Part shown: piece after piece, positions 15,646 to 62,175 of the stretch | Layout: each line of letters starts with the position of its first letter | How positions within the stretch are numbered: position 1 is the stretch's first letter | Assembly (NCBI GenBank): GCA_026874595.1 | Contig: CM049306.1 | Span: 89,446,642 to 89,510,641, forward strand | Source: Sipunculus nudus | Lineage: Eukaryota > Annelida > Sipuncula > Golfingiida > Sipunculidae | DNA length: 64,000 nucleotides | Direction: 5' to 3' | Translations under genes and position numbers: made by a program | The notes under the pieces: generated by a model | The model's database searches: none | Told to the model about the DNA's origin: nothing | The model's input: the letters and a program-made list of their open reading frames with translations, nothing else

Positions 15646-16470
15646 CTAATTTGAAGACTTGCTGATCCTGTCTAGCATGCCGATGCTGTCATTTGTAGTC
15701 GTAGCTAGAGTAACCACTGCCTTCTTTACTTCTGGGTCATCTGGTGAGAGGTTAATCTCCTCTGGTTGCACTGATAATAATGGTTTACATAGAAAAGATG
15801 GTCCCTTGAGCCATGTAGAACTGAGCTCTTCACCTTTGAGACCTCGAGATGCATGGTCCGCTGGGTTTTCCCTAGATGGTACATAATGCCATTGAGGAGG
15901 TTCCGATGATTCCTTTATCCTTTGCACTCTATTAGCTACGTATACATGGAATCTTTGGGCATCATTTTGTATGTAACCAAGAACTACCTTTGAATCTGTC
16001 CAAAAATGGTTGGTGATGGAATCATAATCCAGTTGAGTGTTCAGCAGATCACTAATTCTAACTGACGTTGTTGCCGCTTGCAGCCCTAGACGGGGTATAG
16101 TAATCGGTTTCCGAGGAGTCACCCTTGATTTCCCCATCACTAGGGAACAACATACTTCCCCCTGGTCATTTGTCAGCCTGACGTAGGAACACTGACCGTA
16201 AGCGGTTTGGCTCGCATCTGAAAAATGATGCAATTCAGCCGTGGGGGTCTTTCCGAATGATGATGGCTTGAAGCATCTTGGAATCTTCACGTCTGTTAAA
16301 GAAATAAGTTCCGAACGCCACTGTTCCCATCTTGTCCTTAATGCTTCAGGAACTTCATCGTCCCAGTCAATGCCTTGTTGGCATATCTCTTGTAAGATTA
16401 GTTTGCCTCTTAGGACAAATGGGGCTAAGAAACCCAATGGATCGAAGACCGATGCAACTGTGGCAAGCAT
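15646..16470 (-). pseudogene. BEL/Pao RNase H region (Pao peptidase A17-like)
   Basis: 274 codons starting with VASVFDPLGFLAPFVLRGKL, the signature right after the BEL/Pao RT palm. Next come WEQWRSEL and LHHFSDASQTAYGQCSYV with the RNase H Asp, then PRLGLQAA and FWTDSKVVLGYI. It is out of frame with the RT fragment upstream (overlap 16,425-16,470), so at least one frameshift lies there. Confidence 0.85.
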
Positions 16471-16934
16471 ACCTCTTCTTGTAAAGGACGATCCTTTAAG
16501 ACTAAACGGAAGTTGAACTCGTCTAGTTCAACACACCACTGTATGCCTAAAGCCCTCTCTATGGGTTGATCTCCAAAGGGTAGGTCCAAACCTTGTGTGG
16601 CCTTTGCTATCTCAGATTCTGGAATGGAGTTCATTACCTCTTTACTGTTAGAGATGAACTTGTGGAGCCTCAGTTTTCCAACATTGCAGATTGTTCTGGC
16701 ATCAGCTACTAATTTGAGTGCTTCTTCTACAGTCCCTACACTTTTAAGGCCATCATCCACATAAAAATCTCTCACGATGAACTTAGAAGCTGCTAGGCCG
16801 AGATGGCGGTTTCTGAGTGCTATTTCTTTGAAGCCAATGTTGGCACAAGCAGGGGAAGAAACTGCACCAAAGATATGTACTTTCATACGGAAGTCTATGG
16901 GTTCTGGATTGAGATCGCCATCGTTCCACCACAA
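16425..16934 (-). pseudogene. BEL/Pao reverse transcriptase, C-terminal half
   Basis: Contains KVHIFGAVSSPACANIGFK, then the catalytic box FYVDDGLKSV and the thumb region. It follows directly on the end of the upstream frame at VVFDCSA. In BEL/Pao proteins some 45-50 residues, including the first catalytic Asp of the palm, lie between these two points; they are missing, with a frame change at the join near 16,935. The RT is therefore non-functional. Confidence 0.85.
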
Positions 16935-19228
16935 GCACTACAATCGAATACCACTCTGATCTTTCCTGGTTTCATTGGGTGATAGACACCGTGGTGTGGG
17001 ATGTACCACACTGCTCCCGGTCTAGATACCCTTTTGTCAACAACTTCCGCATCACCTCTGGCTAGAATGTTCTCCATAAAGGTCTTGTAGTCCTGAAAAT
17101 ACACTGGATCCTTCTGAAATCTCCGCTTGAGGCTATCTGCTCGACGCTTGGCTACGACCTTTTTGTTTGGAAGGAATGGTTTCTCACATTTGAACGGAAA
17201 CGGCATCTCGAAATGTCCATCTACTTGTTGATGGATCTTATTTGTCATAATCTTGAGAAATCTAACATCGTTCTGTGAGATATGATTCTCAGACGGCGAA
17301 TCTTCGTTAAAATCCCTTTCAAAGGTTTTCACTAAAGCCAAGAGTGGGTCTGACGTTTCCTCAGTAACTAACGTTTTGAAAGTGAATCTCAGTTCCGTAG
17401 GGGCACCAGGGACTTGCAACCCCTCTGGTACTTGGTGGGTGACAGTCAAGTTGGTTCTGCCGATAGCATCACCAGAGTCATCTCGAAGTTCTGTACAGCC
17501 AACAATTGTCCATCCAAGGTCTGTTTTTACTGCGAATGGTTCGTTACCTGCTCCAGTAATGGCCTTCTTAGGAGCCAGCGCTTGCGGACAATTGTATCCA
17601 ATTAAAAGACCCACATCACAGTCTTGCAAGGGTTGTATCTCATGAGCCACTTCTCTTAATTGCGGCCACTTCCAGGCAACGTCTGGGGTCGGTATGTGAG
17701 ACACATCTAAGTGTATGTTCTCCCGAAAATAGGTAGTAGGTAGAGGGATCCGGACGTTCGAATTATAACCCCGTACTACCAAATCTGTGTATTTAGTGCA
17801 CTTTATAAGCTGATTCACAGATGTGATTGTTGTTAAGCGCAACTTAGCAGGCTCACAATTGGCATTCTCAAGCCTTTCTGCTGTGTGGTTAAGAATAAAG
17901 GTTATATCAGACTGTGTGTCCAGTAGAGCGTACACAAGCTCCTCACGTTCTGGGCTGTCTTTTGTTGAAACCCACACAGGAACAACCATGGCTGTTATAG
18001 GATCCACAGTGACGTTTGCACGACAAGTGCCAGAGTTCATACTAGAGTCCCCTCGTTCATTTTCCTTTGGCACTGTGGTCTTAGGCGGTCCTTCCGTTTT
18101 GTCCTCATGAAGACATGTTGGGTGTCCTTTGTTACATTTCTTACAAGTACTCCTTTCAGGGCACTTTCGTGAAATATGACCCTCTTGTAAGCACCCGAAA
18201 CAAAGGTTATTTTGTCTGATAAATTCTTTCTTTTCATCCACGGACTTTGCCCCAAAAGACCTACACGTGTCTAACGAATGGTTTGTTTTCTCACAAAGGG
18301 GACATGATGTCCTAGTCTGCTTATAAGACTTCCCAGTTGTGGAAAATGTATTAACTCCTGGATTTCGTTTCCGTAGTTTCTTGTCTGTATCCTTGCCAGT
18401 CGACTGTTGAGGCCGCAGGGAACCAAGTGACATTACAGGTGAACAAGCAAGGTCTGCCTCTTCTTGAATGTACTTGGCGAAATACGCAAACTTCGGGTAT
18501 CCCACGGCATGACTGCTTGACTTCCTCCATTTGGCAAACCTTCGGTTCCAGCCTTTCACAACACCATCTGGCAACTTTCTTAGAATCTTCTTTGATTCTT
18601 GTGGGTCGTCTAACACTGACAGTTCCCTAATATCTATCATTGCTGCCTCGCACTGCAGCAGAAAAACTGAATCTTTATAGTCTACTTTAGGCCAGCTGTC
18701 TAATTTTTGACGAAAATGCTCAGCAACAATATATGGATTTCCAAAGCGCTCACTCAATACAGCTTTAGCCCTCTCATATGCTTGGCTGCTCCTTAGTAAG
18801 AAATATCCGCTAACAGCTTCTTTAGCCTTTCCTCCAAGGTACTTCCTCAAATAATGGATTCTTTCTTGAAGTGGTATGCCCCTGGACTCTAATAGAGCTG
18901 TAAACGAGGCTATCCAGTCAGGATAATCAATAGGATCCCCCGTGAACACCGATGGCTCTGGCACGGGAAGTTGTCTGAGGCTAATCGAAGACAACAAGGT
19001 CTCTGAGAGCTGTTTCACATCGACGTTCTCTCGTGTGGGTGATGTCGGGTAAAAAGGTTCTGCTGCTGCATTCAACTTGGAATCCAGCTCCCCTTTGACA
19101 GAAGATACAAATGTAACAGCTGTACAGGGTTCTCCCTGAGACCCTTGTAAATCATACGCATCTAACTTAGCCCTTTCAATTTGCAACTGCTGAGTCAGCT
19201 TCGTGTGTTCCAATTCACGGTGTAACAT
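16895..19228 (-). pseudogene. BEL/Pao gag C-terminus, protease and RT N-terminus
   Basis: 777 codons, the longest frame in the element. Order: coiled-coil-like acidic/basic start; gag domain (DUF1759-like) with EPSVFTGDPIDYPDWIASF at about residues 94-112; zinc-knuckle cluster CPLCEKTNHSLDTC, CFGCLQEGHISRKC and CKKCNKGHPTCLH at about 310-375; pepsin-like protease motif YALLDTQSDITFI near 435, the usual BEL form; and the RT fingers up to IRVVFDCSA. The frame is out of phase with the N-terminal gag part (19,316-19,927). It breaks at the RT deletion. Confidence 0.9.
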
Positions 19229-19315
19229 TTGAATCTCTGCATCTGTCTCAGCACGGCGCTTTTCTTCTTCTAACTCAAATTCCTCAGGCGGTCCTCTTCA
19301 ACTGCAGACACCTGC

Positions 19316-24551: not shown

Positions 24552-26717
24552 TTATTTTAACGCTGCCCGTAAACGGGACCAAAATGTATTAAGATGATCG
24601 ACCAGTCCGTGTCCTGGCCAATCTATGTACGTGTGTGATCGTAGCAAGGTCACCAGGGTGCGCGGCATTTCCGACAGTGGGACGTCTTCCAGAAGGACAA
24701 GAATTATTCTGTCGATTCCTCGTTCTATCAGGTCCAGTCGAGCCATGTGCATCTCAAACTAACACCAGCTACTTCGGACAAAACTTCGGGATAAGATAAA
24801 CACAGTCCTGCGGCTGTTTGAGATGCTGTTCAGGATGTTGTCTTCCATAGGGACGCCGCGGATGAAGCCTCTCTGGTGAAGGCACAGACGCAGAGGTTCC
24901 TCTCCACCTTCCAAATTAGGGACCAGTTGGTCGTACACCCAGGGACTATCATGGTCACAGTGCGAGAAAAAAACATCATATTTAAAGTCAATCAGCTCTT
25001 GTTCAAGCTCCCTGTACAAAGTCCTCCTCATCTTAATCTGGAGACAGGCATACTTTAAATCCCATCTGTGCCTGTAAGCCAGTGCTGACACAGTTAGTAG
25101 GACTGCAAATGTGATAAGCAATCCGAGGATTGCGTACAACCAATGCAGCTTAAGACAACGCTTTTCTAGAGTCGGCAAAATAATTGACTTGACTCTCGTG
25201 AATGCAACATGATCTTCGTTCAGTTGACAAAATACTCGATTAAGCGACATTTTTTTATTTCTCTGAATCCATCGTAAAAAAGACAGTGTGTTGCAGGTGC
25301 ATTCCATCGGGTTTACTTCTAGATTAAGTCTAAAACTTGTTATTTTTCGGCCAAAAGCTGTGCTGATGGAGTCCATGGCCCTTGATGAGAGTGCACGCAG
25401 TCTGTTATGAGACAAATCAAGATGTGTGAGATTATTTAGGTTGGCAATATCCAACGTGAACTCAGTTATCAGATTATTAGACAATATCAACCTGTCCAGC
25501 TTTTTGTTTGCGTCTGATCCAAATATATTTGGCGATAAAAAAATAATCCCGTTCTGGGTCAGTTCCAGATGTGTCAGGTTGGTCAAATATGGAAGCGGTC
25601 CTCCATTATAAGACAACAGCTTACCCAAACGGTTATTGTTCAAAATTAACTTGGATATTGCAGGTGCCAGGGTGCCACTGAAAAACGAAGCAGATATGTT
25701 CCTACAATTATTATTTGACAAATTAAATGTTTACTCAGCCATAGGTTGATCGGCATGGATCCTCCCCATCAGTTGCATGATGTTATTATTTGAAGCATCT
25801 ACGTAATTCATATGAAATGGTTGTTTTCCGCCTAATGTAATGTCTGACTTCATTTTATGAACGTTATACACGCTTCTTGCATACAGCCTTTTTAGGCTTG
25901 ATGGCAAATTCAAAATTATGTTATGACCAATATTTTTATTCGTCTCATGGTAGCCAATATTCTGCGTTTGATAGCTTATGTTTACCATTTGAATGGATGT
26001 CAGTTTATGCAGTCCAAGCAATAGATTGACATACAAGTTATTCTCACTGACATCATAAACCTCCAAGTTGGGAACACTTTGACTGATACCTATCGCAATA
26101 TTACTTATTCTGTTTCTGTTGATTTGTAGCATCCTCAAAGAATTCGATTTGATAGAGTTCCAGAAATCAACCGTTATTTCGACCTCGCAATACCTTGCCC
26201 AGTGTCCGACGATTTCGGTTAAAATCAACTCATTCAAATTACCCTTTGGAAGCACTTTCAGGGCAGAGTTAAGTTGAACAAACCGGTCTCGTGTCAGGTT
26301 TACATTGTAGGACAGATCCAGGAGTTTAAGTTTCTTTAACGGACTAAAGGTCCCTCAAGAGACATTCGTGAGGTTATTATTGTTCAGTATCAAAGTTTCT
26401 AGCCTTGCAAGGCCATTGAAAGACTGTTCGTACAAATGCAGTATAGAACATCTATCCAGCTGGAGTATATATAGATTTGTGCAGTTAATGAATGAATTAT
26501 TATTAATCTGTTTAAAGCTGTTACCTGAAAGATCGATGTTTACGACATTTTTGTTGCACAGATTTGTTGGCAGCTTACTCAGTGACTTCGAGGAACAGTT
26601 GACAATCACGGAGCTGTTTAATAATCTGTCGCAAATGCAAGGTCCACACGGGTACCAGGTTGATCCTTCTGCTCCGGTGCTAATCAATACAACCAGAATT
26701 ACAACAACTGCTCTCAT
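24552..26717 (-). pseudogene. Toll-like receptor with three in-frame stops
   Basis: Innate-immune receptor of the single-cysteine-cluster (vertebrate-like) TLR type, 721 codons in one uninterrupted exon. I chose the second Met (26,717) because a signal peptide MRAVVVILVVLIS follows. Then: LRRNT with CGPCICD (~22-30); leucine-rich repeats (~45-465); LRRCT NPMECTCNTLSFLRW (~470-500); membrane helix (~525-548); TIR from YDVFFSHCDHDSPWV (~580) to box-3 FW near the end. In-frame stops are TGA at codon 121 (26,355-26,357), TAA at 329 (25,731-25,733) and TAG at 653 (24,759-24,761). There is no frameshift. The BB loop reads RGFIRG where RDxxPG is usual, so the key Asp and Pro are lost. Probably a young pseudogene; recoding or assembly error are less likely. 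Confidence 0.9.
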
Positions 26718-36322: not shown

Positions 36323-38006
36323 TCCGCCAAAACAAAGTTTTGCGGATACTATGTTTTTGACCGGGTTCCACCGCCGCCGCTGCGGCGTTCGTTTCCGGAG
36401 AACTCCTCTGAGACTACAGGACAGATTTCTCCAAAACTTACACAAATTATCGGGTCACATGTGAACTGGTGCCTAACCAAGTGACCTTGACCTCTGACCT
36501 TTCCTCTCTACCCAGTGTCCATTTGTGCGTCTGTTTCCACACATAAACCCATATATCTCAAGAACCGTTTGACCGATCAGGAAAAAAAATTTACACAAAT
36601 GTAACTCAGGGATAGCTTTATAACATACATAACAAAAGGTGGCGCCACCTGCAACCATGTTTGCACAGTGTCCATCTGTTCATCTGCCTGGGGTTAAAAT
36701 CACCTAAAGTTCGGCATGCGTATACATCCTAGATAGCTTTCTTGATTTTATGACAGGTGGCGCCACCTACATTCACGTTAACGCTCCACAGATAAACCCA
36801 TATATCTCGGGAACCGTTTGACCGATCAGGAAAAAAAAATTTACACAAATGTAGCCCTGGGCTAGCTTTATAACATAAACAACAAAAGGTGGCGCCACCT
36901 GCAACCATGTTTGCACAGTGTCCATTTGTTCATCTGCCTGGGGTTAAAATCACTCATATCTCTGCAGTGGTTTGACTAATTCACCTAAAATTCTACATGA
37001 TTTTGACAGGTGACGTCACCTACATTCACGTTAACGCTGCAGACATCCAAGCTCATATCTCGGGAACCGTTTGACCAATCAGGAAAAAAAATATCCACAA
37101 ATGTAGCCCTTGGATAGCTTTATAACATACACAAAAATGGTGGCGCCAGCTGCAGCCATTTTTGCACAGCATCCATCTGTTTGTCTGCCTTAGGTTACAA
37201 TCACTCATATCTCTGCAGTGGTTTGACCAAATTACCTGAAATTCAGCATGCTTATACATCCCGCATAGCTTTCTTGATTTTATGACAGGTGGTGCCACCT
37301 ACATTCATGTTCACGCTGTAGACATCCATGCTTATATTCCGGACTCATTCAACCAATCAGGAAAAATTTTTTACACAATTGTAGGTCTTGGATAGCTTTA
37401 TAACATACACAAAAATGGTGGCGCCACCTGCAGCCATTTTTGCACAGCGTCCATCTGTTTGTCTGCCTTGGGGTAAATCACTCTTATCTCTGCAGTGGTT
37501 TGACCTAATTACCTGTAATTGGGCATGCATATACATCCTGGATAGCTTTCTTGATTTTATGACAGGTGACGCCACCTACATTCATGTTCACGCTGCAGAC
37601 ATTAATACTTATATCTCCGGAACCGTTTGACCAATCAGGAAAAAATATTTACACAGATGTAGCCCTTGGATAACTTTATAACATACACAAAAATGGTGGC
37701 GCCACCTGCAGCCATTTTTGCTCAGCATCCATCTGTTTGTCTGCCTTAGGTTAAAATCACTCATATCTCTGCAGTTGTTTGACCAAATTACCTGAAATTC
37801 AGCATGCTTATACATCCCGCATAGCTTTCTTGATTTTATGACAGGTGGCTCCTCCTACAATCATGTTAATGTGGCAGAGATCCATTCTAATATTTAACAC
37901 ATGTAACTCTATATCCCCTTGCCATTCAATCCATGCCTAACTTCACCCGTCCTTCTCTGATTTTGGCGGATACACGTAGTCGCTTGTCGACTACCCGTAT
38001 TCTAGT
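36323..38006 (+). mobile_element. Helitron-like non-autonomous element 2
   Basis: 1,684 bp. 5' end TCCGCCAAAACAAAGTTTTG forms a subterminal palindrome with the following CGGA. 3' hairpin TAGTCG-CTTGT-CGACTA, then CTAGT (38,002-38,006); flanked A...T. The core has about four tandem ~270 bp units, each with two palindromes of GGTGGCGCCACC type and 'ggaaccgtttgacc-atcagg'. Minus-strand frames repeat with the units and are not genes. Confidence 0.8.
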
Positions 38007-39702: not shown

Positions 39703-39706
39703 GTAC

Positions 39707-39934
39707 TGTCAACGTTTTTAAACGCTTACTATGTGGGCAATATCCTTACCCACATGGAAGGGTCCGATGGCAGAGAAGACCTGAGTATTCCGCGGATAAA
39801 TCTTGGCTTGAATCAGCTGGGTATCTTGGCTTCCATTAAGTCGGGTCTTCTGCGCATGTCCAGGGGCCAGTTCCGGGGTGTCCAAATTCCAGAGGTCGAC
39901 ATCTGGCGCCGGTGTTTTCCCTACATCTACTACA
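39707..39934 (-). repeat. Gypsy 3' LTR
   Basis: 228 bp, TGTCAAC...CTACTACA on the plus strand. Same length as the 5' LTR. The last 60 bases are duplicated again at 40,494-40,553. Confidence 0.88.
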
Positions 39935-41112
39935 TTCCTCCCCGTCTTGAAACACAAGCTCATATAGGTGGAACAAATGGAGATATTCAGGGATTAAAAT
40001 ATAACAATTCAATATCCCCTGACAAGTTTAAGAAAGCATTTTTTTAAATCCTGGTGTTACAGACTATATTCGACAACATGACATACTGCAAAATAAGATA
40101 CGTCAACTCGCCATACCTAAGGAACATGCTTAGTCCTAAAAATTACTATTGTGCTCCCTACTTAGCAAACATTTTCAATTAATAGTGTGAATTTAAGCAA
40201 AAGGTCGCCTTGGTCCTCCAGCTGGGTCGACTGGACCAAGACAATTAGTAGCATACAGCTCGCATGCAAAGTATCGCTGTCTTGATCCTCCAGCTGAGCC
40301 GACTGAACCAAGACAGTTAGTATTTGCATGCGAGTTGTGACTCTTCGGCTAGACCAACGAGTCAAGATAACTGCCTTAACAGAATCAAGCAACCCCCTTA
40401 CTAAAATGAGCCATAGAGCCGAGCCGCATTGCTGTTAAGTTGTTGGAGTAGGAAGGTGAGTGGAACCTGTTTGATTTTACTCAACTCCGTGACGGGGTGT
40501 CCAAATTCCAGAGGTCGACATCTGGCGCCGGTGTTTTCCCTACATCTACTACATTCCTCCCCGTCTTGAAACACAAGCTCATATAGGTGGAACAAATGGA
40601 GATATTCAGGGATTAAGATATAACAATTCAATATCCCCTGACAAGTTTAAGAAAGCATTTTTTTAAATCCTGGTGTTACAGACTATATTCGACAACATGA
40701 CATACTGCAAAATAAGATACGTCAACTCGCCATACCTAAGGAACATGCTTAGTCCTAAAAATTACTATTGTGCTCCCTACTTAGCAAACATTTTCAATAA
40801 ATAGTGTGAATTTAAGCAAAAGGTCGCCTTGGTCCTCCAGCTGGGCTGACTGGACCAAGACAATTAGTAGCATACAGCTCGCATGCAAAGTATCGCTGTC
40901 TTGATCCTCCAGCTGAGCCGACTGAACCAAGACAGTTAGTATTTGCATGCGAGTTGTGACTCTTCGGCTAGACCAACGAGTCAAGATAACTGCCTTAACA
41001 GAATCAAGCAACCCCCTTACTAAAATGAGCCATAGAGCCGAGCCGCATTGCTGTTAAGTTGTTGGAGTAGGAAGGTGAGTGGAACCTGTTTGATTTTACT
41101 CAACTCCGTGAC
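39875..41112. repeat. 619 bp tandem duplication at 3' end of gypsy element
   Basis: 39,875-40,493 and 40,494-41,112 are about 99.5% identical (three differences seen). Each unit holds the last 60 bases of the LTR, the 3' untranslated region and the final ~31 codons of the TatD frame. The 3'UTR itself contains two ~65 bp imperfect repeats around 'cagctgagccgactgaacca'. Confidence 0.92.
39935..39946 (-). promoter_or_regulatory. Gypsy polypurine tract
   Basis: Minus-strand GACGGGGAGGAA directly abuts the 3' LTR. A second copy occurs at 40,554-40,565 because of the 619 bp duplication. Confidence 0.75.
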
Positions 41113-42401
41113 GATGGGGAGGATGTCCCATGGCGATCTTGACAGGTAAGGGCAATCCGATTCCACCAGTAGCTTTTCCAGTGGGATGGCCTGTATTGCT
41201 GCTCATAGGGGCTCCACCCTAAACACAAGGTTGGTGATTCCAAGGTGGCAATTTGGGAGTGTGTCTAGCCAGGCAGCGGCTTCCCCTTCACCTCCAGTGA
41301 AACAGTGCCTATGTATCTTTTGCTCCTGGAGATTTCTATTTTGTAAAAGCTGTAACACTTGCCTAGCTGCGGAGCCGTCGCCCTTATCTCGACAATGTAG
41401 AATCAGCACCTTACTTGGGAAACGTCCAGTGATTCTGAATATCCTGTCAAGAAAATTGCGCTGAACACGACAGCTGCCAGCAGAGGAACTATATGAGTCC
41501 AGTCCAACTTCCCCGATGGCGATACACTTCGGGAGACTCAACATTTGGGTCAGCCTGCAAATATAGTCATCAATGCGATGGCCGTCCTGTAAAAGCCTGG
41601 GATGGACCCCAAAAGCGCACCGCACTCTGTTATCACGTCTGATATGAAGATGGTCTGGCCAGTGCTCTGGGTACACAAAGTTTGCGACTATTCCTGAGAT
41701 ATTGACCCCAGCACTGGTATGAGACTCAAGGGAGGCCAGGCTGTCAGATCCTGTTCTACTAAGTAGCATGTCCAGGTGTGCATGCGTGTCGATGAGGGCA
41801 GGATGTGAAAAAGGTGCAAACTCTGGAAGGCTGTCAATAATAGCCCTAGGTAAACGGCTACAAAGGAGCGCCAGGGTATCCCAGTGTAGCAGGCCCGCAA
41901 CACAAGAGGGTGGGTCGGCTGATATGGATTCACTGGGGCTCACCCATTTATGGGTGGCAGACAAGGCAGCCAGACGGACCTGTTCTTCAGGTGAGAATTC
42001 TTTTTTTGTGTGTAGGCCCTCCCGAACTACAAAATGTTGAAGGTCCTGCAAGGAGGCTTTACAGTATAACTGCTGGATGCTTGTTATGAGCTCCCTGCAT
42101 CCCATATCCCATTGACCACTGGCCTGGGGCTTGACTCATGTTCATGCTTCTTTAGGAATGACACATGGCCCTCCTGCACATGGCAGGCCCAGCATGCTGT
42201 TTCAACCTGGAACCACCAGGGAAGATGCTTTCTAACAACGTGACGTCTCAGGTGAGAGTCCTGGGTGTGGCAGATGGGACACAGTATGACCTGTCTGCGT
42301 TTTCTTTTCTTCTTTACTGGAGTTGGGACATCTGGGAGAATTTCTTCCGCCATCTCCTCCTCATAATCAGGGCAGAACTGTGACTCATCCGACAGCTCCA
42401 T
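41020..42401 (-). pseudogene. Zinc-finger plus TatD-family nuclease, third ORF of gypsy
   Basis: Two frames joined by a -1 shift in a 22-base overlap (42,084-42,105). The first (105 codons from ATG 42,401) has a basic stretch KKKRKRRQ and two C2H2-like fingers, CPIC...HVVRKH and CWAC...HEH. The second is a TatD-type metal-dependent hydrolase: DTHAHLD, FGVHPRL, GEVGLD, LHCRDKGDG and HCFTGG give the metal ligands His-x-His, Glu, His, His. A TGA (41,203-41,205) interrupts it, but the same frame goes on to VESDCPYLS with the final Asp and stops at 41,020. TatD proteins are Mg-dependent 3'-5' DNases/RNases. It lies between integrase and 3' LTR, in the element's orientation, where env sits in other elements. 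The -1 overlap may be programmed or a mutation. Confidence 0.85.
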
Positions 42402-42474
42402 TTGAACTAGAGTTTGTACTGGTTTTATTTTTGTTTTGTTTTGTTTATTACAAACACTTGCGTGCCTCGCAACC

Positions 42475-42493
42475 CTGTAAGAAATAAAGAAAC
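42475..42493 (-). promoter_or_regulatory. Candidate 3' splice site for the TatD ORF
   Basis: On the minus strand TTTCTTTATTTCTTACAG ends at 42,475, 73 bases before the ATG at 42,401. A pyrimidine-rich tract plus ACAG is a strong acceptor by eye and would let the third ORF be made from a spliced RNA. Confidence 0.45.
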
Positions 42494-42563
42494 TGACGTT
42501 ATTCCTTTTATTTCATTTCTTGCCCTTATCCTACTTAATTAGATGAGTAATGCCTTATCCCAA

Positions 42564-45070
42564 CTAATTACTTGGCGACTCCACCCTGTAGTCCTCGAAG
42601 CGCTCTGGGCGCTTTATTAGCCTTCCCCTTCTGGTTTTGTTATGGGGCAGGCCCTCTTTCTGGTTGGGATTTGCTCCTTGAGGCTTGTTTGAAGCTTCAT
42701 TTTCTCCTTGGGGCTCTGCTACTGGTACTAGATCTACCGGGTCTGAGCCCAACGTTTGATCACAACCTTGACTATCCACAGGGAAGAGTTTATTCCCATC
42801 CAGGACAGAGAAGCCCATCCGGGCTTTACCGTTTGCTGGACTCCCCTGATCCCGGTCAAGAACATCCTCCTCACGGAAATACTGGTTCCTGGCTCTCCTA
42901 AGCCATAAGGGAATGGATCCATCCGTGCAAGTTTAAGGTTATCGTGATGGATATACTTATCCCTTTTCCTTGACCTCACAAGATAGATCGGGTGCCTCTC
43001 CTGGACCACAAGGTACGGCCCTTTCCAAATGGGACGCAGCTTCGGACTTATTCCCTTCCTTGCCGACTTATCCAGCTGGTATACTAGATCTCCTGGGTGA
43101 TGGATGGTTTCATTTAGTTTTCGACTATACTGATGACTCTGGGAGGCTTGTTGAGCTTTCAGCTTTGTCCTCACATGATGGTGAATATCTGCCATCCGGG
43201 CGACTGGATCTGAGACCCAACAATTGACAGTCAAAGACCGTACTTTTTCCTTGAATGTGCCCAGCAGCAAGTCTATGGGTTGGAACACCTCTCTGCCGAG
43301 CATCATCATGTTAGCCGAGTGTCCGGTGGCACGGTTGATCATGGACCTGAGAGCTCTACTAAGGATAGGGAGATCTTTATCCCAGCCCTTCACATTATCT
43401 CCGATATAGCACCTGATCATTTGCAACAGCGTCCTATTTTGGCGTTCTACCTGGCCATTAGAGGCCTGGTGGTAAGGCGTAGTCCGAGTCTTTGCTATGT
43501 TCATCAATTTACAGAATTCCTTAAACAGGCTTGATTCAAAATGTGTTCCCTGATCTGTATGTATTGAAATTGGACATCCAAAGATGGAGACAAAGTTGAC
43601 AAATAACTTCAGTGCGACTGTTTCTGCACTTTGTTCTGGGAGAGGGACACATTCAACCCATTTCGAAAATTGATCTGTAATCATCAATATGTACTTATTG
43701 TTTGCTTCACTAGGCATGAAGGGTCCCAGTATGTCCAGGTGAACCCTTTCCATGGGGTATCCTGCATGGAACGACCTTAACTGCTCTTTCATTTTCCTAG
43801 ATTTCTTTTTGTTCTTATTACAGGTAGCACAAGACTTGACAAATAGGTCAGCATCTCTTGTCAATAGGTGCCAGTAAAAGTTCTGTTTCAGCCGATCCAC
43901 TGTTTTATCTCGGCCCAGGTGGCCTGCTGTCTTTGTACAGTGCGCCAGTTCTAGGATTTCATTTTTCAATGATGCTGGCACGACGAGCAATGAGCGGGGC
44001 AAATGAGGGTCTTCCCAATTATAGTAGAGGACCTCGTCCTTTACCGATAGTTGTATCTGAGAAGTCCAAAGTGTTCTGGTTGCGGGACTTGTCAGTTGCC
44101 ATTCAGACTGTATAGGTTCTCCCTTGTTAAGCCATTGAAAGATTGGCCTAAGGTCTGGATCTTGTTTTTGGCACTTTGCAATCTTGGCTGACGAGTATGA
44201 GTCTGTCCACTTGATCTGCGGGTCACTCTGCCCACAACCGCTCTGCCCAGAGTCTGATTCTGAATCTTCTGCTGAACTAGACTCTCTGTCATTGGCAGAA
44301 GTCTCTGTAGCACACACTTTGAAATTTCTTTGGTCGGAGCCAATACCAGTACTTCCAGGAACTTGGCCCCCCAGCGATTCCGACTGAGCCAAGGCCCCTA
44401 AGTCCGGCATAGGCTGACCGGATGCCCCGGTGTCTAGAGCATCTCCACCACCTTCCAGCTTAGCCGACTGAGTGGCAGGGCATGTCCCAGCCACCTGAGG
44501 CAACCTCGTAGCAATGGGCACTACATCATCCACATCCATCTCAAATCTTTCCCACTGCTGACTGGCTCGAGTACAATACTTGCAACCCCCACAGGGCAGA
44601 TCAGTTAGATTCACACCCGCCTCATAGCAGTTACAACTAGGTAAATGGTCCGGGATGCGCGATAGGGCGTCTGCATTGCAATGTCTAACGCCAGGGCGAT
44701 GCAGAATCTTAAAGTCATATTGTCCCATCTCCTCCAACCATCTAGCCAGTTGCCCCTCTGCAAACCGAAACCGTGCTAACCACGCCAGGCTGTTATGATC
44801 CGTGCGAATCAGAAAAGGTCTTTCCAGTAGGTAGTGGCGGAAATGCCTGCAAAATCGCACCACGGCCAACAGCTCTTTCCGTGTTGTACAGTATTTCCTT
44901 TGGCACGGCAGGAGAACGAAACTGGCATATGATATCACTCTTTCCACGCCATCCTGTAACTGAGCTAGTTCTGCGCCAATTGCACTTTCAGATGCATCAC
45001 AGTCTAGGATAAATTGGCCAGTTGGATGCGGAAAGGCCAATCGAGGAGCAGATATAAGAGTATCCTTCAA
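42564..45070 (-). pseudogene. Gypsy RNase H and integrase (pol C-terminal half)
   Basis: Main frame 45,070-42,734 (778 codons). RNase H: LDCDASESAIGAELAQ, TTRKELLAVV, RTDHNSLAWL (Asp, Glu, Asp present). A Ser/Asp/Gln-rich linker follows. Integrase: zinc-binding AHCTKTAGHLGRDKT and CATCNKNK, core VHLDILGPF, IHTDQGTHFES and NGQVERQNRT, so the DD35E triad is complete; then a GPY/F-like WKGPYLVV module. The tail continues in another frame (42,818-42,564) to RRGRLIKRPERFEDYRVE, showing a late frameshift. Just upstream, the RT-RNase H connection has a frameshift near 45,160 and an in-frame TAG near 45,100. Confidence 0.92.
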
Positions 45071-45147
45071 GCGCTGAAAGATTTCATCATGCTCGTGAGT
45101 CTATGTAAATACCTCTTTCGGCTTGACCAAGCTGTAGAGACTAGCTG

Positions 45148-46317
45148 TTAACTTGGCGTAGTTTTGCCGTGCGCCCTGTGGTAGTTAAGGTACCCTAGGA
45201 AAATTTCCAATTCCTTCTTGTTGGCTGGTCGAGGCCAGTTGGCAATTGCGTCCTTCTCTTCTTCTGTCATGGCAACACCTTCAGAGTTGACAGACCGTCC
45301 AAGGAATTCCACTTCTTCCTTTAACAGGGAACACTTTCTTAGTTTCAGCTTGAGGTTGAAGCTGCGGAACCTACAGAACACCTCTTTCAAATTGGCTATG
45401 TGGTTTTGAAAGGAATTACCTAGGACAATAACATCGTCCAGGTAAACCAACACCTTGTCCCATGTGAGTCCCTGCAAAACAGTATTCATGGCTCTCATGA
45501 ATGTTGCCGGGGCGTTACAGAGCCCAAAGCCCATCCGGGCATGCTCGAACAGACCATATCGGGTGATGAACGCTGTTTTCTTCTTTGAACTCTCTTCAAG
45601 CTCGATTTGATAATAGCCAGAGGCTAGATCAAGACAACTAAAAAACTGAGTGCCTGCTAACATGTCAAGACAGTCTTCTATGAGTGGAAGCGGGTACTGG
45701 TCTTTAACAGTCTTTTCATTTAGCTGTCGGTAGTCAATACACCAACGGACTGTCCAATCTTTCTTTCTTACAAGTACTGGTGCAGACGCCCATTGGGAGG
45801 CTGATGGCTGAATGACTCCTGCAGCGTTCTCAAACCCAAGAGGTGTCCGGCGCATTCGCTGCTTGACAGGCGTTGCTGAGCCAGTATCTATCTTATGTTT
45901 AATTCCCTGTAGGCGACAAAGATCAAGGTCATGACTAGCAAAGATGTCCGAGAACTCTAATAGCAGGTCACATATAAATTTCAGATTATCATCTGAGTGT
46001 GTCTCTTTACATTCCTGAAAGATCGTAAGCAAGTGACTGGGCAACATTACCTCGATCTCTGACAGAGAGAGTGATCCTATTTGACATGAGGTACTCAGAT
46101 TCTCATCACCTTTAGAATCAGTGGTTTCTTCAGCAGACATGGTCCTTATGTCAAAACTTCCCGTGGGAACTAATTGTGTGGTGATGCTCCCAATCACCTG
46201 ATCAACTTCTATGGCATTACCTATACAGATTTGCGGCTTCAGTTTCACGGGATGATTCGTGTCATTCAGTACATCTACCAACCCTTTATTTTTTATTACC
46301 GCACTTGTTGGTAGCAA
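45148..46317 (-). pseudogene. Gypsy reverse transcriptase
   Basis: 389 codons, in the same frame as the protease but separated from it by a TAG at 46,351-46,353. Motifs: WCIDYRQLNEKTVKDQYPLP, SCLDLASGYYQIELE, FGLCNAPATF, VLVYLDDVIV (YLDD box) and LKLRKCSLLKEEVEFLG. Fingers, palm and thumb are present. Before GVIQPS about ten residues usual in the family are missing (in-frame deletion). After FLGYLNYHR the frame is lost. Confidence 0.9.
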
Positions 46318-46350
46318 ACCTTTAAGATTCTTTTGCAGCTCTACAACATA

Positions 46351-46926
46351 CTAATGATCTTCGCCTGGAGCAACTATCTTGACTGGAATGGAGGTAAGTG
46401 TTGCTGGTGGGATACAGACCTTGGAGCAGGTAGCGACTTCGTAGACGCGACAAGACCTACCAGAACTTGTGTTCCTTAAGGGTGCCCATACCACCTCATT
46501 TGGCATGTTGATGCTATGAGTGTTAAGGTCTATCTTACATTGCTGGCCCACCAAGAAGTCTAGTCCCAGTAATACAGGGTCGCTGATGTCAGCGGCATAA
46601 ACATCCCACAGGTATTTTGATTTCCCTAGGCCTATTTCCACATTGTTAACCCTGTATGCTGGTATGGTTGAATCCTTTTTCCCTATGCCCCTCAATGTGA
46701 CTACCTTGGAAGCTGAGTCAACTAGGTCCTTCAAAAAATCTATTTTCACAATCGTAACCTGTGCAGCACTGTCTACTATGGCAGATTTATGTACACGATT
46801 TATGGTGACCGGAACAGTAAGGCTAAGGCCTGTGCATTCATTATTATCAAGTTCACTGTCACAGGAAAAGCTTGTAGCATTGGTGACAGCACCTGGTGGT
46901 ATTACAGTGATTTCTTTTTCTGTCAT
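46351..46926 (-). pseudogene. Gypsy aspartic protease region
   Basis: 191 codons. The active-site loop reads AIVDSAAQVTIV where D-T/S-G-A is expected, so the catalytic-loop glycine is replaced by alanine. The second conserved block is VLLGLDFLVG. It follows gag after about 130 bases in a different frame, consistent with a gag-pol shift or with decay. It would mature the polyprotein in an intact copy. Confidence 0.8.
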
Positions 46927-47059
46927 CCTCCAGGTTTTCCTTGTTCGCTAATTGATACTATTCCTGAGGAGTCCGGGTATGGGCATTTCGTCAATATCTT
47001 GTCTAATGGTGTGTGGCCTAATGGTTCAGCCGTGTCATGGCCACTTGGCACGACCCCTA

Positions 47060-49436
47060 CTAGTTTAAATCTGAATCTTTTGTGCTCTCCCCCTGCTGTT
47101 TCCCTTGTTGGGGATGTACAGATCGCTTTTTCTCAGGGCAATCTCTAGCGAAATGGCCCCTTTGTTGACAGTGGAAACAGACAATCTCGGTAGCCTCTGT
47201 TCGTGGAGGTGGTGTAGGGACACGATGAAGATTTCTCGCCTGTCTGTCTCTGAAGATCAATTCAACTTTATCCTCCAGAATGGTCATTTTTTGCAAAAGG
47301 TCCGAAATGTTTTTCTGTTGCTGCTGATATCTCTTCTCAGCCATGCCTTCCCTGTCCACATCTGAAAGTTTTGGAGGTGCAGGTGGTGTTGCCATTACTC
47401 CCATCTCTTTGACCCTTGGATTGCCCTGTCTGATTTGTGGGTTAAAGATTTTTGGTCTGTAGTGTTTAAACTGTACTGCTCTGACATCCAGTCCGAGAAG
47501 TCTGACTGCTCCTGAGCGAAATGCACCTGTCTGGCAACATGAGAGGACTTCCCAAATATCACTCGGCCTTTGTTTATGTAGCTACTAACATATCTCAGCG
47601 CTTTGTTGATGCTGCGAGGGTTCTTATCCATTGCGGATGCTGCGGCATGTTTGTCTGCACAGCCTCTTAAGAAATGCTCTACTGCGATCTGTTCTAGTGT
47701 GCTTTCTCTAGCACCTGGCAACCCATCCATGAACAAGAAGAGGACCCTCTGACTAAATTCTTCAAGTGTTTCCCCCCTTTCTGCTTGACAAATTGCAGGG
47801 CCCTCCTGACAGTGATGGGATCCTCTTCAACACCAAATCTTTTTCCCAGTTTCTTTTTTAGCAGTTTATAGTCATGTTCAATTCTTAGCTTCCTCACAAA
47901 ATCCAGTGCCTTACCTGAAAGGCTGTCCACCAGTCTGTCGGCCTTTTTATGTGTTGACCATTTGTATCTTGCGGCATATCTTTCAAACTGAAAGATAAAT
48001 GCCTTCCAAGTTCCATCACCACAGAACTGTGCCAATTTAGGCGGAAGCGGGCTTGCTCGACTTGCTCTACTGGAGTGTCCTCTTGCACTAAGGGGTCTAG
48101 AATTCGATGCGCGGTCGCTTGAATCGGATGTACTACTGCTTGAGCTAGAAGCTCTATGGCGCCCCCTATGTCTACCTCTATGTCCACTCGAGTCAGATTC
48201 CGATGAGCTGCTAGATCGCCTGCGGCTCCTGTAGGAAAAACTTCCGGCACTGCTTCTATCAGAGCTACTACTAGAATCTCTACGTGTTTTGGGTCAGCGA
48301 TGGTAGGGCTTCGGGCTGTAGTTCTTTGACTTACTTGACGGACTTGTATTTACGTTGTGGACATGCTTCTTAGAGTCTATTTCTCGATGCCTGACTTGAT
48401 CTGGCCCTGCATGATCACGTGGGGTATGGTCTTGTCGCCGATATCCGTGTGTCCTATCAGTTGAATCAGTCCTCTCAACCATCTTGTCATGTGATCTGTA
48501 TTGTCTGTTATGACTAACAGCAACCCCAGTGAGAGGCTCAGGGTAATGTCTTGAGACAGGATTGTAGTAGCCAGGGGACTGATTTCTTGCATGACCAATG
48601 GCGGGTGCCCTGTGGCCCTGAACATACCGGTCTCTATTATCAAATTCATCCAGGCAGAGTGAATAATACGGATGTGTGGGAGGTCCCCTAACCGAATGAC
48701 TCTCTGATCTAAATTGTTGGTCCTGGTACCTGGATTGGTGTGTCTTAGATATTTCGTGCTTTGGACTCGGGGCAAGTTTATTTCCCTTTGGGTTTGGCCT
48801 ATCTGCTTCATGGTGTGGCTCGACTGGGGGGCATCTCTGGACAAAGGCAACTCCAAATGTTTGTAGTGGGCCTGGGTTGTAAGAGTTAAACATATTAGGC
48901 CTCCTATACTCAGCATTATTGCCTTGACCTTCCTCATCTGAATAATCATAAGGCAAGGTGGCTGCTGGGCTTGATGTATTATGGTCAGGTTTGTGATAAA
49001 TCCCCCTCTTAAAGGCTGAGCTATTTGCAGTAATCACCTGTTGTATTGTAGGATCAGAATGTAGAGTGGGGGTTCCCCTTTCCTGTATAACATGTTTGGA
49101 GGTGTGGGTATTGTTTTCAGCTTTTTCCACGGTTTCCATATTGTGAGTGGCTTGGTGCCTTATTTCATTTGATTGTTCGTTACCCGGTGATGTGTCAGTT
49201 TGAACCAAGTGGACAGGCAATACTACTTTGCCATTTACTAGGAGATCTTGCCAGTCACTGACCTTTGTTCCAGTAGCCTGGGCTAGCTGAGGGATGTCAA
49301 AATCTGGGTGTTCCTCACGAAGTATCAGAAACTGCTGTGCATTGTCCATATTTATGAGCAGAGGAAATGCTGAGGATAACACCTGCACTGTTACACTGCG
49401 CAAATTAAGAGGCATTGTGTTCATTCTTGCTGCCAA
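47060..49436 (-). pseudogene. Gypsy gag
   Basis: ATG at 49,436. Residues 1-380 form an unusual long hydrophilic N-terminal extension, very rich in His, Pro, Arg, Ser and Tyr. A TGA at 48,294-48,296 interrupts it, but the frame continues into a Ser/Arg-rich run and then the capsid-like part (FCGDGTWKAFIFQFERYA ... KKKLGKRFG). A frameshift near 47,770 leads to MDGLPGARESTLEQ, and another near 47,400 to the nucleocapsid with one CCHC knuckle CFHCQQRGHFARDC. Predicted intact length is about 790 residues, long for a gypsy gag. Confidence 0.82.
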
Positions 49437-50250
49437 TAGAAGTTAATTGATTGTCTTTTGCCGAGGTCGGGGGGGGGGGGGGGGGGTTGAAGTGTTAATA
49501 TTTGCAGGAAAAATCAATGAAGCAATGTGCAAGAAAAGTATTAATGCTTATAATAGTGCTGAGATAAAAGCAAGCACAGCAGTACAACAGACAAGCAATA
49601 TGAAATAAAATATTTTACTAAGAGGGATATGAATATAATAAGAATCAGGGTAGTGGCAGGCTCTGTTCAGAAAATATTGGACTAATGACAGGAGCTACTT
49701 GCAGGTAATCATACAAGTGGGTCAACACAATGAGAAAAAATAGGCCTGAAAATTGTGCTGGTTGAATAATACTGACAAACAGTAGGTTGTCAGCAGAATT
49801 ATTGTGAAAGAATACTGTCAGCCTTGACTAACAAATAAAAGTGTCATCAATCCAATAGGACTCAACACGGGTTATGACTGTTTGACAACAGCACTGAGCT
49901 ACAACAGTTGTCAACGGCGCTGAGCGATAATGTGTTGACAGCACAGCTGAGCGATAAACGGGAAATCACAACGTCAGGTGGACGTCAAGCGGGGTTGGGC
50001 GATAATAACAGAACGCGCCACTACAGTATCAGTTATTCCTAAGCAGGGAATAAATGACAGTAAAGTAGATGAATGTGGTTCATCTGGACTGAAGTAAACC
50101 TAACAAGTGACGAAGTGGTTAGGATAGGCTATAAATATCGGAAGAGAAAATCAAGGTGATAAACTGAGGAATGAAATCACCGGGGGCAAATGGCTTCCCC
50201 AGTGAAAAGTCTCTGCCGATAACTAGCAAAGACACGCTAGCAACCGATTT
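49437..50250 (-). other. Gypsy 5' leader
   Basis: About 0.8 kb without a gene. It contains a C18 tract in the sense orientation (G18 on the plus strand, 49,469-49,486) close to the gag start and several short imperfect repeats of 'gctgagcgataa' type at 49,890-50,010. Confidence 0.65.
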
Positions 50251-50262
50251 ATTTCGTCGCCA
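50251..50262 (-). promoter_or_regulatory. Gypsy primer binding site
   Basis: Minus-strand TGGCGACGAAAT begins one base after the 5' LTR, the expected place and TGG start for a tRNA 3' end. The first seven bases match the tRNA-Arg-type site used by some insect gypsy elements; the exact tRNA is uncertain. Confidence 0.6.
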
Positions 50263-50263
50263 A

Positions 50264-50491
50264 TGTAAACATTTTTAAACGCTTACTATGTGGGCAATAT
50301 CCTTACCCACCTGGAAGGGTCCGATGGCAGAGAAGACCTGAGTATTCCGCGGATTAATCTTGGCTTGAATCAGCTGGGTATCTTGGCTTCCATTACGTCG
50401 GGTCTTCTGCGCATGTCCAGGGGCCAGTTCCGGGGTGTCCAAAATCCAGAGGTCGACATCTGGCGCCGGTGTTTTCTCTACATCTACTACC
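50264..50491 (-). repeat. Gypsy 5' LTR
   Basis: 228 bp, TGTAAAC...CTACTACC on the plus strand; the final C replaces the A of the other LTR. Confidence 0.88.
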
Positions 50492-50495
50492 GTAC

Positions 50496-61499: not shown

Positions 61500-62175
61500 A
61501 TGTCCCATGAATCCCCAATGTCCGTTCTAATAGTCGGACATTCCTTTGTTAAAAGACTCTCCCGTTTTTTTGACGGAGTTTGAGAATGAAGGCACGGGCT
61601 CCTTAGCGGCCGGTGCCGCCCCAACCGTGGTCGTTTCAAAGTGGCAGCTTTCTGACAATCTCGGCCTGGATCGAGCGCAATTTAAGGTGTCTTTTTATGG
61701 CATTGGGGGAATGGTTTTACGTGGTCATCAAAGCGCGAAATCCCTCACCAGCGCTTACACCATGCGCAAGATTGAGGAGTACCGCCCCAGTATACTAGCT
61801 ATTGACATAGGTTCGAATGACCTCTGCGACAAAACGACTGATCCAGTTAAATTGGCTAATCACGTACACGCGTTTGCAGTGGTGATTGCTGAATCTTATG
61901 ATATTAGGGCGGTCATATGTGGATCTGCCCTTCCTCAACGTTCTTCCCCCTTTGGCACCTACAATGCCAGGGTTGATGAGTACAATAGCACTTTATATAA
62001 ATTATGCAACAAAGCGGAGGAAAATTCAAAAGTCCGTTTTTGGAAACATTCTGGCTTCCGTAACCCATCTTCTCAAGTGTACCTTGTTGACGGGATTCAC
62101 TTAAACTTTAGAGGATTGGGCAATTATGCTTGTAGCTGGAAACGAGCCATCGTTACATGTTTTAAGGAAAAATGA
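61500..62175 (+). pseudogene. SGNH/GDSL-type hydrolase, one frameshift
   Basis: Serine hydrolase of the SGNH fold. The frame from ATG 61,500 reads MSVLIVGHSFVKRLSRFF with the block-I Ser (GHS). At a T7 run (61,565-61,571) the reading shifts by one base into the long frame. That has block II FYGIGGMVLRG (Gly), block III IDIGSNDL (Asn) and block V VDGIHLNFRG (Asp-x-x-His). All four signature residues are present, total about 225 residues. Such hydrolase frames occur inside some retroelements (Ngaro/DIRS-like and CR1-like), so this may be part of an element together with the frame at 63,442. The single-base slip at a homopolymer could also be a sequencing error. Confidence 0.75.

Follow-up and report, generated by a model that had tools for sequence, protein, structure and literature searches.

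A broken Ty3/gypsy element of Sipunculus nudus with a finger-TatD gene in the env position

Errantiviruses are Ty3/gypsy (Metaviridae) elements with an env gene. Here we describe a Ty3/gypsy long terminal repeat (LTR) retrotransposon in which the env position is taken by a gene for two C2H2-like zinc fingers and a TatD nuclease domain; the element lies in a 64,000-nucleotide stretch of Sipunculus nudus (assembly GCA_026874595.1, contig CM049306.1, positions 89,446,642 to 89,510,641), and this whole stretch is referred to as the window. In the LTR retrotransposons Juno and Vesta of bdelloid rotifers, the third open reading frame (ORF3) encodes a DEDDy exonuclease (PMC5408684). A captured nuclease in the env position is thus already known, and the finger-TatD type is new as far as the literature was searched: no TatD gene in an LTR element was found among the titles and abstract openings covered, most subscription journals, bioRxiv and Repbase being outside that scope. 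As for the enzyme, PMC12709183 describes E. coli TatD as a 3′-5′ exonuclease on single-stranded DNA and RNA, human TATDN1 and TATDN3 as cutting abasic sites, and TATDN2 as an RNase that resolves R-loops and acts on RNA in hybrids. We consider it very probable that the window element is a decayed member of a Ty3/gypsy lineage in which a stand-alone finger-TatD nuclease is the regular third gene.

The third gene and its linkage to pol

The third gene occupies 42401-41020 of the minus strand, between pol and the 3′ LTR, with its ATG at 42401 and a TAG at 41020-41022, and from its N-terminus, which is acidic, the product runs through two C2H2-like fingers and a helical stretch to a TatD barrel. 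The two fingers, of CxxC..H..H type, come after the ATG; the TatD_DNase family (PF01026) matched at 3e-25, a TIM-barrel fold was found as well, and a 310-amino-acid frame holds DTHAHLD, GEVGLD, LHCRD and HCFTGG, with VESD past a TGA at 41203-41205. The metal ligands HxH, E, H, H and D are all present, the last one after the TGA. The first-pass annotation, made from the letters alone, had described a frame between integrase and 3′ LTR, in the element's orientation and inside GTAC-bracketed LTRs, with two fingers and a TatD domain keeping every ligand, and each of these parts was found. The TGA was noted there as well; in addition, the gene is split over two frames, with the fingers in one, the helical region and TatD in the other, and a shift between 42135 and 42114.

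Five loose motif checks were passed by 21 of 23 relatives, the other two (P0005 and P0007) ending early. For the window ORF3 and 13 relatives, Pfam gave TatD_DNase matches and none to a DEDDy family. In the predicted structure the fingers show the strand-strand-helix order two times; Foldseek with the fingers gave no significant match, and the top-ranked solved folds, none of them significant (E 0.25 and above), were tandem DNA-binding C2H2 proteins such as CTCF and ZBTB7A. Structure comparison of P0001 barely covered residues 1-210. One finger-TatD relative, P0141 (21 member sequences), has an extra C-terminal NADAR domain (3.2e-19).

We searched the 1.4265 Gb source genome with the window TatD, which gave 131 matches merged into 104 loci, and with pol, for which the best 57 of 10,253 candidates were scored as 57 loci. 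At 45 of the 57 scored pol loci a TatD-family gene lies 211-1601 bp downstream on the same strand, where 0.011 would be expected; the opposite strand showed none within 12 kb of these loci, and none lay up to 15 kb upstream of them. The reverse count finds one of these pol loci upstream at 45 of the 104 TatD loci. Fifteen TatD loci were fetched, namely the five nearest to the window copy (its duplicate excepted) and ten from abundant families, and 14 had pol just upstream in the same orientation. Since 12 of the 57 scored pol loci have no listed TatD (eight of the weakest-scoring kind, at 382-426 bits, and four at 467-775), the gene is taken to be lineage-specific. The first-pass annotation's central proposal, that a Ty3/gypsy element carries a cellular-type nuclease as its own gene, is supported by this linkage, and TatD copies confined to places outside gypsy elements, which it had named as the contrary outcome, were not what the scored loci revealed.

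The fifteenth fetched locus, C7:62425059 (C7:62423800-62429799, L112), is an LTR-TatD-LTR deletion derivative without gag or pol, whose TatD frame is open, whose LTRs are 99.1% identical, and which has its own TGCT duplication and a primer site cut by the deletion. We rejected its origin as a retrocopy of a spliced message, as the junction runs from the primer site to the pol 3′ end, upstream of the acceptor.

Sister copies with the same LTRs but lacking TatD were the other contrary outcome. Where both ends of an LTR relative were located (C1, C4, C12, C13 and C7), they bracket a TatD gene. No listed TatD match adjoins the weak LTR-like pair at C3:2425473 and C3:2428621 (69%, separated by 3.1 kb) or the single LTR-like matches C6:81204387 and C2:64526819. 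Four further single LTR matches at 79-83% with no listed partner (C6:60070499, C5:25841874, C1:12063942 and C8:60505733) are probably solo LTRs of sister families.

Nine insertions were examined for target duplications, and eight gave a clear one, all distinct and of 4 bp (GTAC, CGTA, TATA, ATAT, TGCT, GTTA, ATAA and CTTT); none was cleanly readable at C13:28366056. Identity between the two LTRs is 96.9-99.6% in five copies of the lineage sister to that of the window and 100% in three examined copies of two other lineages, whose TatD frames are open over 505-509 amino acids and whose copies are 99.4-99.7% alike within each lineage over 7.6-8.8 kb. Identical LTRs and open TatD frames indicate that such elements moved recently. 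Overall, 32 of the 131 TatD matches have an open frame of at least 480 amino acids without a stop, two of the 32 matching at just 32-34%. The window TatD and LTRs have a second copy (100% when rounded), all displaced by the same 322,866 bp, a pattern that speaks for segmental or assembly duplication and not for a fresh insertion.

By sequence comparison, then, many insertions in this one genome have the gene after integrase and before the 3′ LTR; it moves together with the LTRs and pol, and copies that transposed recently keep its frame open. Because TatD and pol are linked across the genome, the window TatD is not there by chance, and we are nearly certain that the gene is no chance passenger and would count as a bona fide element gene.

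Descent, selection and expression

The comparison set for TatD held vertebrate TATDN2 and a small bacterial sample, with TATDN1 and TATDN3 left out, and the larger tree omitted P0242 (no cutting motif), P0005 and P0008. The first-pass annotation had proposed a tree against host TatD genes. In the larger tree, the finger-TatD clade (97/87) stands apart from vertebrate TATDN2 (100/99) and nine bacterial rows (100/100). In a second tree, with fewer rows, the ten element rows form one clade with P0001, P0002, P0003 and P0135 (100/99); there the family branch was weaker (88/86) and P0140 fell outside. The finger motif occurs in 13 of 15 family rows, in 0 of 93 TATDN2-like rows and in 0 of 12 bacterial rows; the family rows without it, P0003 and P0138, start inside the finger. 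On the other hand, the IH[RC]HCF signature is common to the family (13/15) and to TATDN2-like rows (91/93), being absent from the 12 bacterial rows, and all 15 family rows score higher against TATDN2-like than against bacterial proteins. Because of the common signature and the higher scores, an animal TATDN2-like source of the element TatD is likely. Grouping with vertebrate TATDN2 was not seen in the tree, from which the sole invertebrate candidate, P0242, had been dropped for want of the cutting motif.

Two other kinds of TatD sequence turned up in the source genome. An exon-like match at C1:109164513-109164743, 52% to zebrafish TATDN2 residues 563-637, is perhaps the host's own TATDN2 gene. 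Near-identical bacterial-type TatD genes stand on the small contigs C61-C89 and L135-L137, with a peptidase-like frame adjoining in L135; these contigs look like bacterial DNA in the assembly.

The first-pass annotation had also proposed measuring selection across copies. Between lineages, the nonsynonymous divergence (dN) of TatD is far under the saturated synonymous divergence (dS). Comparison of the window copy with five sisters gives a TatD dN of 0.20-0.22 at saturated dS; for pol in three window-sister pairs dN is 0.16-0.17 and dN/dS 0.12-0.14. The identity ranks of TatD and pol agree (Spearman 0.84) over 21 non-independent pairs from seven copies of four lineages, much of this being driven by the grouping of close copies.

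A splice-acceptor-like site, AGTTTCTTTATTTCTTACAG, precedes the TatD gene, its next base being 73 nt before the ATG. Scored with a consensus table, it ranks first among 829 AG sites of the element and 7,397 of the window on both strands; its score was reached by 0 of 200 shuffles of the element and by 1 of 2000 of the short pol-TatD gap. Four of five sister copies have, top-ranked in the fetched stretch, a corresponding site that differs in sequence and scores higher, so that an acceptor-like site stands 73-192 nt before TatD in the window lineage and these four. From this site we predict, as somewhat more probable than not, that TatD in the window lineage is expressed from a spliced, env-style mRNA.

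Outside the source genome, the longest contigs of P0015, the best pol relative, and of P0002, a TatD relative, are each exactly 557,787 bases, the only such match between the best 120 of 359 pol and the best 120 of 3,813 TatD-profile matches; this coincidence is indirect evidence for the same TatD-pol arrangement elsewhere. P0003 represents 27 member sequences. Metagenome-assembled genomes of Candidatus Thiodiazotropha hold TatD (P0144) and pol (P0035) relatives, which look like host DNA within them; these bacteria are symbionts of lucinid clams. Among IMG/VR viral contigs, query A1 gave two weak TatD matches (24-26%), P0001 and A4 gave none, and the pol query A5 matched a single contig, L083, a distant gypsy sequence in which no TatD frame lies downstream. 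Prokaryote contigs held no relative for query A2 and ordinary bacterial TatD genes for A4, and the finger-TatD family was not found in either scan, its presence beyond the best 80 of 445 matches of the A4 scan not being excluded. The related gypsy pol protein P0032 has an N-terminal macro domain (PF01661) ahead of the protease, as another captured enzyme-like domain.

Candidate roles of the finger-TatD protein

Several observations weigh against parts of the preferred reading, whether the gene, its splicing or its role. The window copy is broken by one frameshift and one TGA and is unable to make the protein as read. No pol among the best 57 of 10,253 candidates lies upstream at 59 of the 104 TatD loci; three of these were fetched, with pol at two and none at one. 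Among close copies TatD dN/dS, where defined, ranges over 0.07-1.26, a spread that would be expected of drift after insertion, as recent copies drift. The fifth sister copy has no acceptor-like site, and no strong acceptor was found at six loci of the 505-, 500- and 509-amino-acid lineages, where the best site within 400 nt ranks 5-14 with scores of 3.2-4.4. Spliced expression for all lineages was thus rejected, and those three lineages need another expression route because of the missing acceptor. Finally, RNase H in pol already clears template RNA, and a second enzyme for this task is not obviously needed.

On the reading of a regular finger-TatD gene, the TatD of intact copies would very probably be catalytically active. 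In the window lineage and its sister, the protein would be made from a spliced subgenomic mRNA with the strong acceptor just upstream; its fingers would bind nucleic acid, and its metal-dependent TatD domain would process ends or hybrids, namely 3′ ends, RNA that remains in RNA-DNA hybrids, or abasic sites. The substrates may be the element's own reverse-transcription or integration intermediates. The first-pass annotation had listed the trimming of cDNA, the clearing of failed intermediates, attack on rival or host nucleic acid and DNA targeting through the fingers as conceivable functions. By analogy with known TatD enzymes, we put forward this action on replication intermediates tentatively, at somewhat less than even chances.

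The main rival is counter-defence, in which the nuclease would hit host small RNAs, RNA-DNA hybrids at silenced loci or sensed DNA, and so blunt silencing, with the fingers providing the targeting. Defence antagonists are often accessory genes, and TatD is accessory in that it follows only some pol loci (45 of the 57 scored); its fingers are conserved across deeply diverged members. The relative TATDN2 acts on RNA in hybrids (PMC12709183). A replication role would account just as well for the long persistence at constrained sequence, and we regard counter-defence as possible but unlikely. Less probable still is a helper of integration, whose fingers would tether the pre-integration complex to chosen DNA while the barrel trims flanks or flaps at the junction: the modelled strand-strand-helix fingers, whose top-ranked though non-significant folds are DNA-binding C2H2, speak for it, but the target duplications are ordinary, of 4 bp and varied sequence.

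A host TatD without any function, which landed beside gypsy or entered an element a single time by read-through, would explain the broken window copy and those close pairs that have dN/dS near or above 1, and element decay could mask a lack of function. The linkage at 45 of 57 scored pol loci already refutes this for the lineage as a whole; it is further opposed by the own target duplications of eight in nine insertions, the open frames in 32 of 131 matches and the low dN between lineages, and by a GC content of TatD (0.506) near that of the LTR (0.504) and pol/gag (0.46-0.47) and unlike the flanks (0.31-0.34), so that such a passenger is extremely improbable. An envelope-like role of the third gene despite its origin, suggested by the env position and the env-style acceptor in two lineages, is just as hard to credit, given that ORF3 is a finger-TatD protein rather than an envelope glycoprotein as in errantiviruses and that TatD, plus NADAR in P0141, was the only family above the cut-off in its relatives, no search for membrane segments or signal peptides having been made.

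With the finger-TatD gene, the few enzymes known in the env place of LTR elements come to include a second nuclease fold, unrelated to the first. This suggests a repeated benefit to such elements from having a nuclease, and the gene's open, recently mobile families in one genome are material for testing the nuclease's role. It also carries a warning for annotation, as multi-copy TatD or TATDN2-like genes may be transposon genes. We lean, by a little more than even chances, towards TatD being kept stably under selection as an auxiliary gene in a long-lived Ty3/gypsy lineage of animals that is present in many hosts, and towards a good part of the multi-copy invertebrate "TATDN2-like" genes being element genes. 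A hint of the latter comes from the giant-squid genome paper (PMC6962438), in which a "TATDN2" is one of the non-Hox genes listed inside the Hox cluster, next to a pogo-transposon gene and several of zinc-finger type.

Element architecture, neighbouring features and known systems

The element spans 10,785 bp, with a 619-bp tandem duplication counted in (Table 1). The LTR pair with its target duplication, the primer-binding site and polypurine tract, and the domain order gag, protease, reverse transcriptase, RNase H and integrase, in which the protease match is weak, are those of a Ty3/gypsy LTR retrotransposon. The outermost base of the 5′ LTR deviates from the TGT of the 3′ LTR. The gag region has a CCHC knuckle (6.6e-8) and a PNMA-like stretch under the family cut-off (E 1.6e-4). 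Frame changes occur also in pol and gag; pol ends near 42579, followed by a gap of about 160 bp before the third gene. The tandem duplication spans the TatD 3′ end, the 3′ untranslated region and part of the 3′ LTR.

Table 1. Coordinates of the element and its parts in the window
Feature	Position	Strand	Basis
Whole Ty3/gypsy element, LTR to LTR	39707..50491	-	LTR pair, target duplication, gag/pol domains
5′ LTR, 228 bp	50264..50491	-	8/228 differences to 3′ LTR
3′ LTR, 228 bp	39707..39934	-	Pairwise LTR match
GTAC target-site duplication, 3′ side	39703..39706		Read from sequence
GTAC target-site duplication, 5′ side	50492..50495		Read from sequence
Primer-binding-site-like stretch TGGCGACG... 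just inside 5′ LTR	50245..50262	-	Same place in sister copies
Polypurine tract GGGGAGGAA just inside 3′ LTR	39935..39943	-	Similar in sister copies
gag region, several frames	47060..49442	-	Domain matches
Aspartic protease	46351..46947	-	Weak match, under curated cut-offs
Reverse transcriptase	45148..46350	-	RVT_1 6.9e-29
RNase H and integrase (H2C2, rve)	42734..45100	-	Pfam domains
C-terminal pol tail, other frame	42564..42932	-	tblastn, P0015 residues 1440-1541 at 42929-42579
Splice-acceptor-like site AGTTTCTTTATTTCTTACAG	42475..42494	-	Next base 42474, 73 nt before TatD ATG
ORF3 N-terminus, acidic FxPDY motif and two C2H2-like fingers	42135..42401	-	tblastn with P0001, 48%
ORF3 helical region and TatD nuclease domain	41020..42114	-	Pfam 3e-25; tblastn 45% to P0001
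619-bp tandem duplication, 39874-40492 / 40493-41111	39874..41111	-	4/619 differences

Beside the element, repeat units at about 250-280 bp spacing lie at 36536-37893. A BEL/Pao LTR element (DUF1759, Pao peptidase A17) lies at 15646-19297 on the minus strand, with integrase-like frames on down to 14730, and pieces of a Toll-like-receptor-type gene, with leucine-rich repeats and TIR (Pfam on 24759-25730), are found at 24759-26354, also on the minus strand. On the plus strand, 61534-62175 holds a GDSL lipase/esterase-like frame (2.5e-10); GDSL ORFs are also known from retroelements (PMC5408684).

The bdelloid Juno and Vesta elements (PMC5408684) resemble the window family in having a captured nuclease gene downstream of pol, in the env place, in that element copies group apart from cellular homologues, and in the Zn-type Cys/His motif of some. 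They differ in the enzyme, a DEDDy (RNase D/DnaQ-like) fold there and a metal-dependent TatD barrel here, and the window family has two fingers and a conserved helical region before the enzyme, with sequences nearest to animal TATDN2. Bacterial TatD/YcfH forms its own clade and lacks the finger motif in the 12 rows compared. Vertebrate TATDN2 has the TatD barrel and the IH[RC]HCF signature in common with the element protein, whereas the two fall in separate clades, the finger motif was seen in family rows and in none of the TATDN2-like rows, and the element gene occurs in many copies with a frame open throughout. With env-bearing Ty3/gypsy elements (Metaviridae; errantiviruses) the window element has in common the order gag-pol-ORF3-LTR, the 4-bp target duplication and a possible spliced ORF3 message, but where their ORF3 is a fusion glycoprotein, that of the window element is a finger-TatD nuclease-type protein.
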